Source: Arcticibacter tournemirensis
GTDB lineage: Bacteria > Bacteroidota > Bacteroidia > Sphingobacteriales > Sphingobacteriaceae
DNA length: 64,000 nt
Direction: 5' to 3'
Assembly: GCF_006716645.1 (NCBI RefSeq)
Contig: NZ_VFPL01000001.1
Location: forward strand, 4,526,001-4,590,000
The notes below the pieces were generated by a model. It ran no database searches, had not been told where the DNA came from, and saw only the letters and a list, made by a program, of their open reading frames with translations. The first letter of the stretch is position 1; every line of letters starts with the position of its first letter. Of the stretch, positions 20,135 to 63,585 are shown in pieces. Made by a program: the position numbers and the translations under genes.

Positions 20135-20218
20135 TGCCCGAGACGAGATTCGAACTCGTACACCCAAACGGGCGCCACCCCCTCAAAGTGGTGCGTCTAC
20201 CAATTTCGCCACCCGGGC
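20135..20218 (-). tRNA. tRNA-Leu (anticodon GAG)
   Basis: 84 nt on the minus strand. The acceptor stem GCCCGGG pairs with CTCGGGC. The D-arm is TGGCGAAATTGGTAGACGC. The anticodon stem-loop CCACT-TTGAGGG-GGTGG has GAG in the loop. There is a long class II variable arm, and the T-loop is GTTCGAATC. The discriminator is A, and CCA is not encoded. Confidence 0.95.
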
Positions 20219-20246
20219 ATTGCATATTTAAGAACTGTTCCTTTGA

Positions 20247-20331
20247 TGGTGACCGGAGAGAGACTCGAACTCTCAAGGGAATTCCCAACGGCTTCTGAGA
20301 CCGCAACGTTTACCAATTTCGCCATCCGGCC
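20247..20331 (-). tRNA. tRNA-Leu (anticodon CAG)
   Basis: Minus strand. The acceptor GGCCGGA pairs with TCCGGTC, with one G-T pair. The anticodon arm GCGGT-CTCAGAA-GCCGT has CAG. A class II variable arm and the T-loop GTTCGAGTC follow. CCA is encoded at 20247-20249. It lies 28 bp upstream of the other tRNA-Leu in the direction of transcription, so both are probably processed from one transcript. Confidence 0.95.
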
Positions 20332-49348: not shown

Positions 49349-49380
49349 TTGTCAATTGTCAATTTAATATTCTACCTTTG
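49349..49380 (+). promoter_or_regulatory. promoter of the cobalamin operon
   Basis: A -33 element TTG (49349-49351), a 21 bp spacer, and a perfect -7 box TACCTTTG (49373-49380). Transcription would start about 5-8 bp later, directly ahead of the B12 riboswitch. Confidence 0.75.
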
Positions 49381-49385
49381 CAATG

Positions 49386-49545
49386 CTTTTGGTTTCCGGT
49401 GTAATAACCGGGATTAAAAGGGAATCCGGTGTAAGTCCGGAACTGTCCCGCAGCTGTAAGCTCCATTAACCAGGTCCACCCTATGTCACTGTATTTGAAA
49501 ATACGGGAAGACAGGCCCGAGGGGAGTAAGTCAGAAGACCTGCCA
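49386..49545 (+). ncRNA. cobalamin (B12) riboswitch
   Basis: Conserved core elements in order: CCGGTGTAAGTCCGGAACTG, TCCCGCAGCTGTAAGC, CGGGAAGACAGGCCC and the B12 box AAGTCAGAAGACCTGCC (49528-49544). It lies about 107 bp upstream of the receptor start. Binding of adenosyl- or methylcobalamin should reduce expression of the uptake operon. No obvious T-tract terminator follows, so control may be at translation or through Rho. Confidence 0.95.
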
Positions 49546-49651
49546 TAGCACGATAGATTCATAGCTTTCGGGGATTGAAGCTGGAATGAAAATACTCGTC
49601 GTATTTCCATTGTTCATTTCCTTCCCCCTGCTTAAATAATTACTCATTAAC

Positions 49652-58607: not shown

Positions 58608-58802
58608 ATGGAAATTACAATAAAAATAGATAAGCGGAGCAAGCAGGCAAAAGCGTTCTATGAATACCTTAAGACGCTTCCGTTTGTTGAGTTGGGAGAA
58701 CCACGTTATAATAAAGATACTGAAATAGCGATTAAAGAAGCTAAATCAAGAAAGACATCCAAAATCTCGCTTGAGGATTTCAGAAAAGAACTTTATTCCT
58801 AA
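58608..58802 (+). CDS. antitoxin of a YafQ-type toxin-antitoxin pair
   Basis: 64 aa, charged, with a ribbon-like start (MEITIKIDKRSKQAKAFYEY) and a helical C-terminus (KTSKISLEDFRKELYS) that probably wraps the toxin. No named domain is certain. The TAA stop and the toxin ATG share one base (TAATG), the usual antitoxin-first coupling. The N-terminal half probably binds its own promoter DNA. Confidence 0.8.
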   Translation: MEITIKIDKRSKQAKAFYEYLKTLPFVELGEPRYNKDTEIAIKEAKSRKTSKISLEDFRKELYS

Positions 58803-59077
58803 TGTATCAACTTGAACAGACAGGAAAGTTTAAAAAGGACATTAAACTCGCTAAAAAGCGTGGTTTGGATATGCGCCTGCTCGATGAGGTCGTTACTCAA
58901 CTGGTCGAAAAAGGTGAGCTTCCAAAACAAAATAGGTCCCACAAATTAACAGGTAATTATAAAGGATTTTGGGAATGCCACATCCAGCCCGACTGGTTAT
59001 TGGTATGGGCCCAAGACGATACCATTAGGCTCATTACACTAACGAGAACTGGTACACATCGTGACTTATTTTTGTAG
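58802..59077 (+). CDS. type II toxin, YafQ family mRNA interferase
   Basis: 91 aa. It follows the YafQ/RelE fold: TGKFKKDIKLAKKRGLDM, SHKLTGNYKGFWECHIQPDW, LLVWAQDDTIRLITLTRTGT and HRDLF. The active-site set known from E. coli YafQ (three His and one Asp) is visible as H47, H60, D64 and H86. It cleaves mRNA on the ribosome when not neutralised. The stop lies 12 bp from the end of convergent hrpB. Confidence 0.9.
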   Translation: MYQLEQTGKFKKDIKLAKKRGLDMRLLDEVVTQLVEKGELPKQNRSHKLTGNYKGFWECHIQPDWLLVWAQDDTIRLITLTRTGTHRDLFL

Positions 59078-59089
59078 GGACACCACATA

Positions 59090-61576
59090 TCACTTCCTCC
59101 TTACCCCGCTCACAGCTTCCGCTTTTAAAGGTTCCTCTGGCCATGAATGCTTAGGATATCGTCTCTTTAATTCCTTTCGCACCTCGAAATAGGCATTTTC
59201 CCAGAAGCTCCTCAGATCAGAAGTCACCTGTACAGGTTTAAATCCCGGCGACAACAAGTGAAGTACCACGCCCTGTCGGCCTTCATTTATCTTTGGCGTA
59301 TCCAGCATACCGAAAACCTCCTGCAGCCTTACTGCTAAGACGGGCAACGCCCCGTCGGCATGGTATTTTAATTTCACCTGAGAACCACTGGGAACACGGA
59401 TACTTGAAGGTGCAAGATGATCGAGAGTGACCTGCATCTCATAAGGGAGGCTTTGCTGAAGCACCTGCACTAAATTTATCCGTTTCAGATCCTCTGTTTT
59501 CTTGACCTGAGGCAAATAAGATGAGAGCCACCTCTTGTTATTTTCAAGCAACGCCGCCGTACTCACATCCGGCCAATTTTCTTCCGGCCGCCAGAGACGC
59601 AGGCTCATTACCCGGTTCTGCCATTGTTCGGTTTCTTCTGTAAAGTTCAGCAAACCCTCGCCTTCTGCTTTGAGCGCCTCCGACACTGCTTCTATAACCA
59701 GTTCCTGGTCGGGCGACATCATTTGCCGCGATTGCAGAACAATACTTCCGATCCTCAGATCCCTGGTCGCCACGATACCTCCTTTGCGGGTATCCCATAG
59801 TACCGTATCGCTCTCTGACGCTATATCAACCAGATCATTAGCATTCACCGGGGCCGCAAGGAAGATCTTTCCAATGCCCTTACGAGCGTCGAGCTGGGCG
59901 ACAGCTAACCAGTGTTCATGGGCGAGGTCGTCTTCAGTACTCACTGCAGCGGTCTTTCCGTTAGCGAGCTGAAACTGCCCTGTATGACCAGGCCTGGCGC
60001 AGGCGATACGTTCGGGGTAGGCGTATGACAACAGCAACCCGGTTGCATAAGGATCGTTCGTTCGGTTATCCTCATCAACTCTGAATAAGCGCCGGTAAGA
60101 CGAAGCTATCTTCTCGATATTATCCATCCTTCGTTCTTTACGACGCTCCTGCCGGTGTCTTCTCAGCGCTTCAACCCTCAGGTTGATATCGATGTTACCT
60201 TCCTTTTCGAGGGGGTCTCGCTCTTCAAGCAAAGCAGCCAGGTCGGTAGCTAAGGCAAGGTTTTCAGTACCCGAGGCCATTGCCAGCATATGAGCGATGC
60301 GCGGATGACAGGGCAAAGCATGTATCCGCTTTCCATGCGGGGTGATCTTATTGTCTTTAAGCGCATTCAGCTCATGGAGGATTTCATTCGCCCGCGCTAA
60401 GGCAGCAGCCGGAGGCGGCGTCAGCCACGTCAGCTGAAGGATATCTTTCACGCCCCACTGTACCATGTCGAGTACCAGGGATGCGAGATCAGCCTCAAGG
60501 ATCTCCGGAGTACGATATGGCGCCATTCTTTCCTGCGTTGCTAATGACCACATACGATAGCAGGTACCTGGACTAAGTCTTCCTGCTCTTCCGGAACGCT
60601 GGTCGGCTGAGTCGACTGAGATCTGCGAGGTCTTTAACCCCGACAGTCCCGACTTTGGATCAAAAGCCTGACTTCTTCCGAGTCCGCTGTCCACTACGAT
60701 CTTTATGCCTTCTATGGTTAAGCTGGTTTCAGCAATCGATGTCGCCAGAACCACCTTTCTTTTACCCGAGGGATCGGGCATAATAGCTGCATTCTGTTCT
60801 GCAAATGAAAGCTGACCATACAAGGGATGGATACCAATATCTCTGAGCTGTCTTTTCAGTAAGGCTTCGCATTTTCTGATCTCGCCCTGCCCGGGAAGAA
60901 ACACGAGAACATCCCCCTCCCTCTCCGCTATAGCGCGAACAACGGTTCGTGCGCATACTTCCGGCAGTTGCTGCAAATCCTGCTCGCCTGTATAGATAAC
61001 ATCTACCGGATACATACTTCCTTTGCTTTCGACCACAGGGGCTTCCAGTAACCCGGCCAGGCGCGGAATATCAAGGGTGGCCGACATGACCACGATCCGC
61101 ATATCGGGGCGTAGCACCTGCTGCGTCTCCCGGCAGAGAGCCAGCGCGATGTCGGCATGGATGCTTCTTTCATGAAACTCATCAAAAATCACCAGTCCGA
61201 TATCTTCGAGGGCATTATCACTGTGAAGCATTCTTGTGAGTATCCCCTCTGTTACCACTTCAATCCGTGTTTGAAAAGATGTTTTATTTTCAAAACGGAT
61301 GCGGTATCCTACAGTCTGGCCGGGTTGTTCTCCTAATAAGGAAGCCATCCTGTTTGCGATAGTCCCCGCAGCTAAACGCCTCGGCTCGAGAATAATCATT
61401 TTCTTATCTTTCAGCCAGGGTTCCTGAAGTAATGCCAAAGGAAGGACAGTACTTTTCCCGGCACCCGGAGGAGCGCTTATGATGAGCGTGTTATTAGTGG
61501 CAAGACTACTGCTTACGGAAGGAATGATTTCTGTAACCGGAAGTCCTGTTTTATAGGGATCAAAATTATTGCGCAT
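59090..61576 (-). CDS. hrpB: ATP-dependent RNA helicase-like protein HrpB
   Basis: 828 aa from the ATG at 61576 (MRNNFDPYKTGLPVTEIIPS). A longer frame to 61618 would run through a perfect -7 box. DEAH-type motifs: SAPPGAGKSTVLPL (Walker A), VIFDEFHERSIHAD, VMSATLDI, LVFLPGQGEIRKCEAL, ATSIAETSLTIEGIKIVVDS and DQRSGRAGRLSPGTCYRMWS. HrpB C-terminal domains then extend to the end. Its biological role is poorly defined even in E. coli. It is a single gene with its own promoter and converges on the toxin gene. Confidence 0.94.
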   Translation of the reverse strand: MRNNFDPYKTGLPVTEIIPSVSSSLATNNTLIISAPPGAGKSTVLPLALLQEPWLKDKKMIILEPRRLAAGTIANRMASLLGEQPGQTVGYRIRFENKTSFQTRIEVVTEGILTRMLHSDNALEDIGLVIFDEFHERSIHADIALALCRETQQVLRPDMRIVVMSATLDIPRLAGLLEAPVVESKGSMYPVDVIYTGEQDLQQLPEVCARTVVRAIAEREGDVLVFLPGQGEIRKCEALLKRQLRDIGIHPLYGQLSFAEQNAAIMPDPSGKRKVVLATSIAETSLTIEGIKIVVDSGLGRSQAFDPKSGLSGLKTSQISVDSADQRSGRAGRLSPGTCYRMWSLATQERMAPYRTPEILEADLASLVLDMVQWGVKDILQLTWLTPPPAAALARANEILHELNALKDNKITPHGKRIHALPCHPRIAHMLAMASGTENLALATDLAALLEERDPLEKEGNIDINLRVEALRRHRQERRKERRMDNIEKIASSYRRLFRVDEDNRTNDPYATGLLLSYAYPERIACARPGHTGQFQLANGKTAAVSTEDDLAHEHWLAVAQLDARKGIGKIFLAAPVNANDLVDIASESDTVLWDTRKGGIVATRDLRIGSIVLQSRQMMSPDQELVIEAVSEALKAEGEGLLNFTEETEQWQNRVMSLRLWRPEENWPDVSTAALLENNKRWLSSYLPQVKKTEDLKRINLVQVLQQSLPYEMQVTLDHLAPSSIRVPSGSQVKLKYHADGALPVLAVRLQEVFGMLDTPKINEGRQGVVLHLLSPGFKPVQVTSDLRSFWENAYFEVRKELKRRYPKHSWPEEPLKAEAVSGVRRK

Positions 61577-61582
61577 GCGCTG

Positions 61583-61590
61583 CAAAGATA
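61583..61590 (-). promoter_or_regulatory. -7 box abutting the hrpB start
   Basis: On the minus strand TATCTTTG ends 6 bp before the ATG at 61576, so transcription is predicted to begin at or within a few bases of the start codon. Confidence 0.5.
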
Positions 61591-61618
61591 CAGGGAAATC
61601 ATTTTTAATGTGAAGCAT

Positions 61619-62043: not shown

Positions 62044-62074
62044 TTGCATATAAACACAAGTTTGGATAAGTTTG
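62044..62074 (+). promoter_or_regulatory. promoter of the fluoride-response unit
   Basis: A -33 TTG (62044-62046), a 20 bp spacer and a perfect -7 box TAAGTTTG (62067-62074). The predicted start (about 62079-62082) coincides with the first base of the fluoride aptamer. Confidence 0.8.
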
Positions 62075-62078
62075 CGGA

Positions 62079-62131
62079 ACGGAAATGGTGTCTTCCGACT
62101 TAACCGCCCTAAAAAGCTGATGGCGCCTGCA
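62079..62131 (+). ncRNA. fluoride riboswitch (crcB motif)
   Basis: Core elements of the crcB motif occur in order. P1 is GGAA (62081-62084) with TTCC (62093-62096), enclosing ATGGTGTC. The linker AACCGCC (62102-62108) comes next, then GCTGATGGCGCCTGCA (62116-62131). The loop GGTGTC (62086-62091) can form a six-pair pseudoknot, with G-U pairs, to GGCGCC (62122-62127), as in known fluoride aptamers. The P3 stem is weak (short GC pairing around CCTAAAAA). It lies 60 bp upstream of a CLC-F gene, which strongly supports the call. Confidence 0.87.
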
Positions 62132-62141
62132 AAATTCAATC

Positions 62142-62160
62142 CGGGAAGGTTTACTTCCCG
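62142..62160 (+). promoter_or_regulatory. candidate expression-platform hairpin
   Basis: CGGGAAG (62142-62148) and CTTCCCG (62154-62160) form a perfect 7-bp stem with loop GTTTA between the fluoride aptamer and the clcF ATG. No T-run follows. The aptamer strand CTTCCG (62092-62097) could compete with CTTCCCG for the same partner, giving a possible switch. Confidence 0.55.
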
Positions 62161-62190
62161 CGAACAATTTATTTGTAGGCAACAATCAAA

Positions 62191-63585
62191 ATGACAGCAA
62201 GAAATATAGCATCCGAACAATTCCCAATCTTAAAAAACCTTGTACGATGGACTGTAATGGTGATTCCGGTTGCTATTGTGACGGGAAGCATGGTCGCGTT
62301 GTTCCTCTGGCTGCTCCATTCGGTTACTGATATCCGTTTTAATAATCCATACCTCTTATTTTTTCTGCCTCTGGCCGGACTGCTTATACATATAATCTAT
62401 AAGGGTATCGGGCAATCGTCGGAAAAAGGAAATAATCTGATCATCGACGAAATCCACAGTCCGGGAGGAGGAATTCCGAAACGGATGGCCCCTATCGTAT
62501 TGTTGTCAACGGTGCTCACTCATCTATTCGGAGGCTCGGCAGGTCGCGAAGGAACGGCAGTCCAGATAGGCGGCAGCATTGCCCAGATGTTCGGAAGCTG
62601 GTTTAAGCTGCAAAAGAAGGATATGACCATTCTGCTTACTGCCGGTGTAGCGGCTGGATTCGGTGCTGTTTTCGGAACGCCGCTGACAGGAGCGATCTTT
62701 GCAATGGAGGTATTGACCATCGGACGTATTCAATACGATGCCCTGCTGCCTTGCCTCATCGCCAGCATTGCAGGCGACGCAACGGTAAGCGCCTGGGGAA
62801 TTCATCACACTACGTATCATATTGATGTTTTTCATTCAGCACCGGGACTGTTCTCTTCTTATTTGTCACCCGATTTCTATCTGCTTTTGAAGGTAATTAT
62901 TGCCGCTATTGCCTTCGGTCTGTCGTCTTATCTTTTTTCTATACTTGTATACGGGATCAAAAATTTCTTTGTCAGCAGGTTTACCATAAAGTGGCTGATA
63001 CCGGTAACCGGGGGACTTATTATCATCGGATTAACGTACGTTACCGGTAAACCAGATTATCTGGGCCTGGGCGTTGATTCGCAATATGCCGGTGCGGTAA
63101 CTATACCATCGGCTTTTAAGGCTGGTGGGGCGGATACATGGAGCTGGCTTTGGAAAACCCTTTATACATGCCTGACCCTTGGAACAGGCTTCAAGGGCGG
63201 CGAAGTGACTCCTTTGTTTTATATCGGGGCAACCCTGGGCAACACGCTTTCTATTTTACTGGATGCCCCCGTGGGCCTTTTTGCGGCGCTGGGTTTTATC
63301 GCTGTATTTGCAGGAGCCACCAACACGCCTTTGGCCTGCACCATCATGGGCGTTGAATTATTTGGTAGCGAGTACATCATTTTTTTCGCGACGGCCTGTT
63401 TTGTTGCTTACTTCTTCAGCGGACATTCGGGAATCTACAGCTCGCAGCGCATTGCCGTGCCTAAAATCCTTAATTCACGTTTTTCTGAAGAAACTTCACT
63501 CTCTGAATCGAACCAGCGAAGGGGTCGGCGCATGCGATGGAAGTTAGCGAAGTATATCGTTGCTTTAAAAAATAGAAGGGGATAA
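62191..63585 (+). CDS. clcF: CLC-F type fluoride/proton antiporter
   Basis: 464 aa CLC protein without C-terminal CBS domains. The selectivity motif is GNNLIIDEIHSP (80-91) instead of the chloride-type GSGIP, and the gating-Glu motif is GGSAGREGTAVQ with GREGT instead of GREGP. The later motif GTGFKGGEVTPLF carries a second Glu (E338) and Thr (T340). From memory, these three changes are those described for fluoride-exporting CLC-F proteins. The gene follows a fluoride riboswitch. It should export F- in exchange for H+ across the inner membrane. It would easily be misannotated as a chloride channel. Confidence 0.9.
   Translation: MTARNIASEQFPILKNLVRWTVMVIPVAIVTGSMVALFLWLLHSVTDIRFNNPYLLFFLPLAGLLIHIIYKGIGQSSEKGNNLIIDEIHSPGGGIPKRMAPIVLLSTVLTHLFGGSAGREGTAVQIGGSIAQMFGSWFKLQKKDMTILLTAGVAAGFGAVFGTPLTGAIFAMEVLTIGRIQYDALLPCLIASIAGDATVSAWGIHHTTYHIDVFHSAPGLFSSYLSPDFYLLLKVIIAAIAFGLSSYLFSILVYGIKNFFVSRFTIKWLIPVTGGLIIIGLTYVTGKPDYLGLGVDSQYAGAVTIPSAFKAGGADTWSWLWKTLYTCLTLGTGFKGGEVTPLFYIGATLGNTLSILLDAPVGLFAALGFIAVFAGATNTPLACTIMGVELFGSEYIIFFATACFVAYFFSGHSGIYSSQRIAVPKILNSRFSEETSLSESNQRRGRRMRWKLAKYIVALKNRRG

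Follow-up and report, generated by a model that had tools for sequence, protein, structure and literature searches.

The 64,000-nucleotide stretch of Arcticibacter tournemirensis DNA analyzed here (hereafter, the window) holds a sequence resembling a fluoride (crcB) aptamer in front of a CLC-family gene, and the question raised by this arrangement is whether the leader senses fluoride and, if so, at which step of gene expression it would act.

Fluoride aptamer and promoter

The Rfam covariance model of the fluoride riboswitch, RF01734, matched positions 62072-62136 over its full length (model positions 1-64), scoring 46.1 bits where the gathering score is 34, with an E-value of 1.3e-9 for the whole window. 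The aptamer proper lies at 62080-62128 of the forward strand, as do all the leader features given below, and contains each of the parts that the initial annotation had pointed out: a P1 of 5 bp, CGGAA/UUCCG (62080-62084/62093-62097), the core motifs AACCGCC (62102-62108) and GCUGAUG (62116-62122), and a pseudoknot of six pairs, two of them G-U, between GGUGUC (62087-62092) and GGCGCC (62122-62127). The pseudoknot covaries among relatives. By the covariance model, the window aptamer is a fluoride riboswitch, its response to fluoride being a prediction. P3 (62106-62107/62116-62117) has two of the four pairs of the Rfam model and had been called unusually weak, which holds against the model but not among relatives, as a simple pattern found a two-pair P3 in 39 of the 128 leaders that it could parse (5 of the 133 were unparsable). 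To judge from these leaders, a reduced P3 is tolerated within the lineage, and as a peculiarity of this locus it was ruled out.

The promoter proposed for the unit is present in all its elements, namely a -33 TTG (62044-62046), a spacer of 20 nt by sequence inspection, and a -7 element, TAAGTTTG (62067-62074), which ends 6 nt 5' of the first GG of P1. TAAGTTTG fits the consensus TAnnTTTG. From the position of this box, the transcription start is predicted at about 62080, at P1. A scan for the usual sigma-70 promoters found none at the leader, as would be expected for a promoter of the Bacteroidota type. Among the leaders with a -7-like box, which was loosely defined in this survey, 56 TTG-to-box spacers of 15-25 nt were counted, 40 of them 19 or 20 nt long, and 98 of 124 leaders have such a box no more than 20 nt from P1, compared with 8.4% of mononucleotide shuffles. 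The absence of a leader before the aptamer, also presented as unusual, is therefore real here but shared by those 98 leaders, and an aptamer at +1 was ruled out as an oddity.

The downstream gene and its putative product

The gene at 62191-63585 (forward strand) encodes a protein of 464 aa that matched the Pfam family PF00654 with an E-value of 2.6e-71. Its best structural matches were the CLC-F structures 6d0j, 6d0k, and 6d0n (E 5.6e-57 to 5.9e-56, 193-197 bits), and the 196.6 bits of 6d0j compare with 38.6 bits (E 4.6e-9) for the next CLC structure, 3nd0, and 34.7 bits for clcA (3ejz). Three NCBIfam chloride-channel models also matched, far under their cut-offs. The motifs GNNLI, GREGT, and GGEVT, noticed earlier in the translation, begin at residues 80, 118, and 336, and both functional glutamates are kept (E120 in GREGT and E338 in GGEVT, equivalent to the gating glutamate E118 and to E318 of 6d0j). 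As described in an excerpt of PMC12035849, the extra glutamate E318 of 6d0j is missing from the chloride CLC, and the chloride-coordinating serine is replaced by M79 in 6d0j. In the window protein, N81 of GNNLI aligns with this M79. An asparagine at the equivalent site occurs in proven CLC-F proteins. The alignment with the CLC-F structures extends over residues 25-421, with both key glutamates present in the window protein, unlike 6d0k, in which the first one is changed; the differences from 6d0j are the motif (GNNLI instead of GMNLV) and the greater length (464 vs 421 residues). These comparisons support a CLC-F fluoride/proton antiporter rather than a chloride CLC, a protein that would move fluoride. 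Together with the covariance model match, they bear out the earlier reading of the locus as a fluoride sensor followed by a CLC-F exporter.

Among relatives, 80 CLC loci were named, mostly from Mucilaginibacter and Pedobacter, with 62-74% identity. Among the plasmid relatives, the 10 listed of 55 (e.g., H1, NZ_CP055154.1) carry the annotation "voltage-gated chloride channel family protein", a label that is misleading if they are CLC-F.

A helix competing with the pseudoknot

In the minimum free energy folds of the window leader, the sequence following the aptamer core pairs with the region just upstream of the start codon. This helix, P4, joins a 5' arm, GCCUGCAAA (62125-62133), to a 3' arm, UUUGUAGGC (62172-62180), that ends 10 nt before the AUG; it has nine contiguous pairs, one of them G-U, and its arms covary in relatives (see below). 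A predicted extension pairs C62183 and AUCA (62185-62188) with the conserved UGAUG of the aptamer (62118-62122) and reaches to 2 nt from the AUG. The fold of 62118-62193 has an energy of -27.9 kcal/mol (z -4.87), and none of 200 shuffles was as stable. Enclosed by P4 is a 7-bp hairpin, CGGGAAG/CUUCCCG (62142-62160), which the initial annotation had correctly described as lacking a T-run, the longest between 62128 and 62190 being 3; for this reason the hairpin was ruled out as a terminator. The same annotation had taken it as the platform by which the aptamer may control translation or Rho access, and had missed P4; of its two proposals, the comparative data favor translation.

GCC 62125-62127 belongs both to the 5' arm of P4 and to the 3' half of the pseudoknot strand, which makes P4 incompatible with the bound aptamer. 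When the aptamer was barred from other pairs, the mean probability of being unpaired rose from 0.07 in the free RNA to 0.44 for the 3' arm of P4, and from 0.50 to 0.67 for the region -20 to +6 of the window. The AUG itself is unpaired with a probability of 0.86 in the free RNA vs 0.64 with the aptamer blocked, so that only the region before it closes. After removal of GCC, a pairing UGCAAA/UUUGUA is still possible (-15.3 vs -23.8 kcal/mol), and the opening may therefore be partial. Averaged over 66 leaders, the value for the region -12 to +6 rose from 0.38 to 0.51, with an opening in 62 of them. The accessibility change predicted by these models is modest.

Conservation and covariation of P4 in relatives

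For comparison, 133 leaders (126 distinct) were assembled. In the family survey, 253 of 399 genomes had an RF01734 match; the best matches were listed, and 30 loci and 40 stretches were taken from these, so that the sample leans towards well-scoring aptamers. From a survey of other families, in which 36 of 247 genomes had a match, 21 leaders over the cut-off were included and the second match of one genome (G419) was left out. Five leaders below the cut-off (L115 and L178-L181) were dropped, and one near a contig end (L158) was treated separately with mononucleotide shuffles, by which it showed no clear P4.

The best helix using at least two pseudoknot bases was equaled in no more than 5 of 100 dinucleotide shuffles in 75 of the 126 leaders. 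Once 14 leaders of a single genus (g14) had been set aside, the remaining 112 formed 78 clusters, and in 61 of the 78 cluster representatives no more than 10 of 100 shuffles were as good. Pairing is kept between arms that differ in sequence, for example CCUGCAAA/UUUGCAGG, CCUGAUUAAA/UUUAAUCAGG, GUCUACUUUAA/UUAAAGUAGAC, and GUCUGUUUU/AAAACAGAC. Covariation was scored on the 58 distinct arm sets that 72 of the 78 representatives supplied. The alignment favors P4 in two ways, as each leader entered with its best register and the six representatives that offered no usable helix were omitted. In this alignment, 89.9% of the P4 cells were paired (72.2% after shuffling), the covariation score was 0.520 (0.215 after shuffling, and at most 0.127 when the alignment was slid), and 95 cells had changed on both sides (36.4 in shuffles), with the shuffled and slid alignments as the null. 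Six of the eight P4 pairs had changed on both sides, a number also reached by 126 of 500 shuffles.

Because the alignment set leans towards P4, all 78 representatives were also put through a less constrained test, in which each arm could pair wherever it fitted best, both in the leader it came from and in foreign ones. Of 36 distinct arms, 32 paired better in their own leader than in foreign leaders on average; the share of foreign leaders that were as good had a median of 11%, and it was 5% or less for only 8 of the 36. For the window arm the result was moderate, as 10 of 35 foreign leaders paired with it at least as well. This last figure would suit the alternative of an intact aptamer without any switching, with P4 as leftover complementarity and a constitutive exporter; so would the position of the AUG, 10 nt past the arm and predicted to be mostly open in both states. 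The nine contiguous pairs kept in the window and their z-score argue against it, and we regard a constitutive exporter as unlikely.

The individual positions are also informative. At position 4 of the pseudoknot, the bases of the P1 loop, the strand, and the P4 arm read G/C/G in 60 of 72 representatives and A/U/A in 8, the latter from three families (f1, f29, and f50); two of the other four (L046 and L073) keep the strand C and have an A in the arm, where the start codon is AUG, not GUG. In these sequences, when the strand base changes from C to U, both rival partners usually follow, as a switch predicts. Position 3 is looser, since 10 of the 72 keep the pseudoknot pair and lose the P4 pair.

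In the other families, P4 passed (no more than 10 of 100 shuffles as good) in 9 of 20 leaders, or 9 of 21 counting L158, and two of these nine (L170 and L172), in which the 3' arm lies within the coding sequence, are doubtful. Four leaders of another family (L160, L167, L171, and L174) have the start 15-20 nt 3' of the pseudoknot and no clear P4, and may switch in a different way.

In the 14 CLC leaders of g14, no P4 was found near the start. There, the P3 strand AACAGGC can pair with GCCUGUU of the sequence AUG-CCU-GUU. Codons 2 and 3 are CCT and GTT in all 14, though the leaders were chosen by that very motif, and those genes also encode Pro and Val most often by CCT and GTT, while AACAGGC is invariant. 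Given this selection, these common codons, and this invariance, the candidate pairing is only a lead. A search of L183 for a tRNA or tmRNA near the second g14 aptamers found neither.

Start codons and reading frames

In 68 of the 78 representatives, an ORF of 30 codons or more starts between -5 and +12 nt relative to the point where the 3' arm of P4 ends: inside the arm in 26, at 0-2 nt in 21, and at 3-12 nt in another 21, the distance in the window being +10 nt. The frames opened in the arm were followed in the 30 CLC leaders whose arm has GTG or ATG at its end, six others without a CLC motif being set aside. The frame opened in the arm reaches the CLC start in 29 of the 30, compared with 0 and 2 of 30 for the other two frames, counts that include near-identical leaders (e.g., L040-L042). 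Of those 29 frames, 13 continue into the CLC and 16 stop within -10 to +15 nt of its ATG, a stop window that was set after the leader ORFs had been seen. The 16 short leader ORFs (L036, L038, L046, L062, L068, L075, L078, L080, L083, L084, L099, L102, L103, L106, L108, and L111) start with GTG or ATG at the P4 arm end, stop on or near the CLC start, and have little conserved protein sequence. This frame result would be hard to explain unless the arm starts are used, and their use in relatives would place control at translation, directly or via coupling.

The same results bear on control of transcription, in which P4 or the inner hairpin would serve as a terminator, like the Bacillus cereus switch. 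The terminator stem of published transcriptional switches, also named P4, does use the pseudoknot strand (an excerpt of PMC13273304), and a run of at least five T near or before the P4 arm end in 15 of the 78 representatives could permit termination. In the window leader, however, T-runs are short and no intrinsic terminator was called on the forward strand, and the starts inside the arm in relatives, with the frame test, favor a translated start over a terminator, which we consider improbable.

A Shine-Dalgarno (SD) sequence within the P4 arm was also considered and judged unlikely, since the AGG there mirrors the CCU of the aptamer strand. This AGG ends 11 nt before the AUG in the window, and in the leaders with GUG in the arm it abuts or overlaps the start codon; where it lies 5-7 nt from the AUG (e.g., L126), SD use is conceivable.

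Taken with the parts of the leader, its mutually exclusive pairings, and the covariation in relatives, the frame evidence for starts inside the relatives' P4 leads us to regard the window unit as, quite probably, an ON-switch that responds to fluoride and acts at the initiation of translation. Transcription would begin at P1. Without fluoride, P4 would form, UGAUG would pair up to 2 nt before the AUG, and with its initiation region structured, the exporter would be little translated. With fluoride, the strand would be held in the pseudoknot, P4 would lose its first three pairs, and the initiation region would open; the exporter would then remove fluoride. That fluoride drives this exchange of pairings, with an effect on translation in A. 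tournemirensis, is what we infer. Rho termination is a usual consequence of blocked initiation. It is possible, though not likely, that poor translation without fluoride also leads to early termination within the exporter gene and to a change in mRNA level, which fits the structures found here and would be a layer atop P4.

For the relatives, we lean, with some reserve, towards a wider form of the translational switch: in Sphingobacteriaceae-type Bacteroidota and some other families, the aptamer strand would pair directly with the bases around the start codon, and a GUG start would often lie within the helix; in some of the leaders, the gated start would open a short, poorly conserved ORF, and control would reach the exporter by translational coupling; and one genus would have exchanged this platform, in its CLC units, for pairing of the P3 strand with AUG-CCU-GUU, with its PAP2 units keeping P4.

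Genome context

A second RF01734 match lies on the reverse strand of the main contig of A. tournemirensis (467147-467213). It is followed by nine genes (L189, G000:C1:459000-468800), in order: PAP2, metallophosphoesterase, a 136-aa ORF without a Pfam match, enolase, inorganic pyrophosphatase, CLC, DUF190, CrcB, and universal stress protein. The PAP2 phosphatase of this cluster has a GTG start inside the P4 arm, and its CLC, which is CLC-F-like, is 67% identical to the window CLC over 456 aa; two further CLC-family genes are present in the genome. Fluoride is known to target both enolase and pyrophosphatase, which are often associated with fluoride riboswitches (excerpt of PMC11139923). The window unit is thus a stand-alone exporter in a genome with a larger fluoride cluster, and its description as an autonomous sensor-exporter stands as to sensor and exporter, with "autonomous" to be softened. 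A relative (G081) has the riboswitch followed by PAP2, an EamA-like gene, enolase, and CLC, where the names PAP2 and EamA are our reading of the sequence.

By pattern, 38 of the 80 CLC loci of relatives lack an aptamer, and 25 of these have an enolase motif upstream and look like later cluster genes; three of the 38 contain a CUGAUGGCGCC core, and the count therefore includes pattern misses. One locus (L131, G376:C330:132200-133720) carries two fluoride riboswitches separated by about 0.8 kb; after each of them, the first ATG opens a short ORF of 65-68 codons, and these may be duplicated or broken genes.

Elsewhere, the window contains a cobalamin riboswitch (49373-49561, forward strand, 113.4 bits), two tRNA genes close together (20135-20331, reverse strand), a HrpB-type ATP-dependent helicase (59090-61618, reverse strand), and an ORF for a YafQ-type toxin (58608-59077, forward strand; PF15738, E 7.2e-33). 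The ORF before the toxin encodes 64 aa, had no Pfam match, and is perhaps its antitoxin.

Relation to known riboswitches

Like the RF01734 family, the window unit has P1, the pseudoknot, the conserved core, and a CLC-F-type gene downstream; it differs in its two-pair P3 and in the position of the aptamer at +1 of a Bacteroidota-type promoter. In an excerpt of Hertz et al. (2026, PMC13273304), the fluoride riboswitches of Burkholderia pseudomallei and Pseudomonas syringae are named translational, and covariation models are given for transcriptional ones, in which the pseudoknot strand is common to P4; no word beginning with Bacteroid- was found in the main text. The window leader resembles the P. 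syringae and B. pseudomallei switches in having no termination, and their platform presumably uses the pseudoknot strand likewise. Unlike them, it would mask the start-codon region, in a phylum without SD sequences, and in its relatives the start lies inside the helix. With the transcriptional switches it shares a pseudoknot and P4 that are mutually exclusive and both covary, but it has no poly-U, and its 3' arm ends near the start codon.

According to an excerpt of PMC6847099, Bacteroidetes are without SD sequences, and the structure near the start codon is one of the factors on which their initiation depends. A preprint cited in PMC7366714 deals, by its title, with TPP riboswitches of Bacteroides that regulate transcription or translation, so that a translational riboswitch is by itself nothing new in this phylum. 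Among the matches listed in our literature search, no title or abstract opening described start-codon masking by fluoride switches in Bacteroidota. The unit of aptamer and CLC-F gene is known in kind, and the finding that these leaders would add, supported by reading frames and covariation, is the start-masking platform.

Translational riboswitches are usually explained by hiding of the SD sequence. If the reading proposed here is true, this one would act on the start-codon region itself, in a simple system with a known ligand, a likely pump, and an easily scored phenotype. It would also predict the platform for many fluoride switches of the family, given the proportion of its genomes with a match, and would offer small fluoride-inducible parts for hosts without SD sequences.
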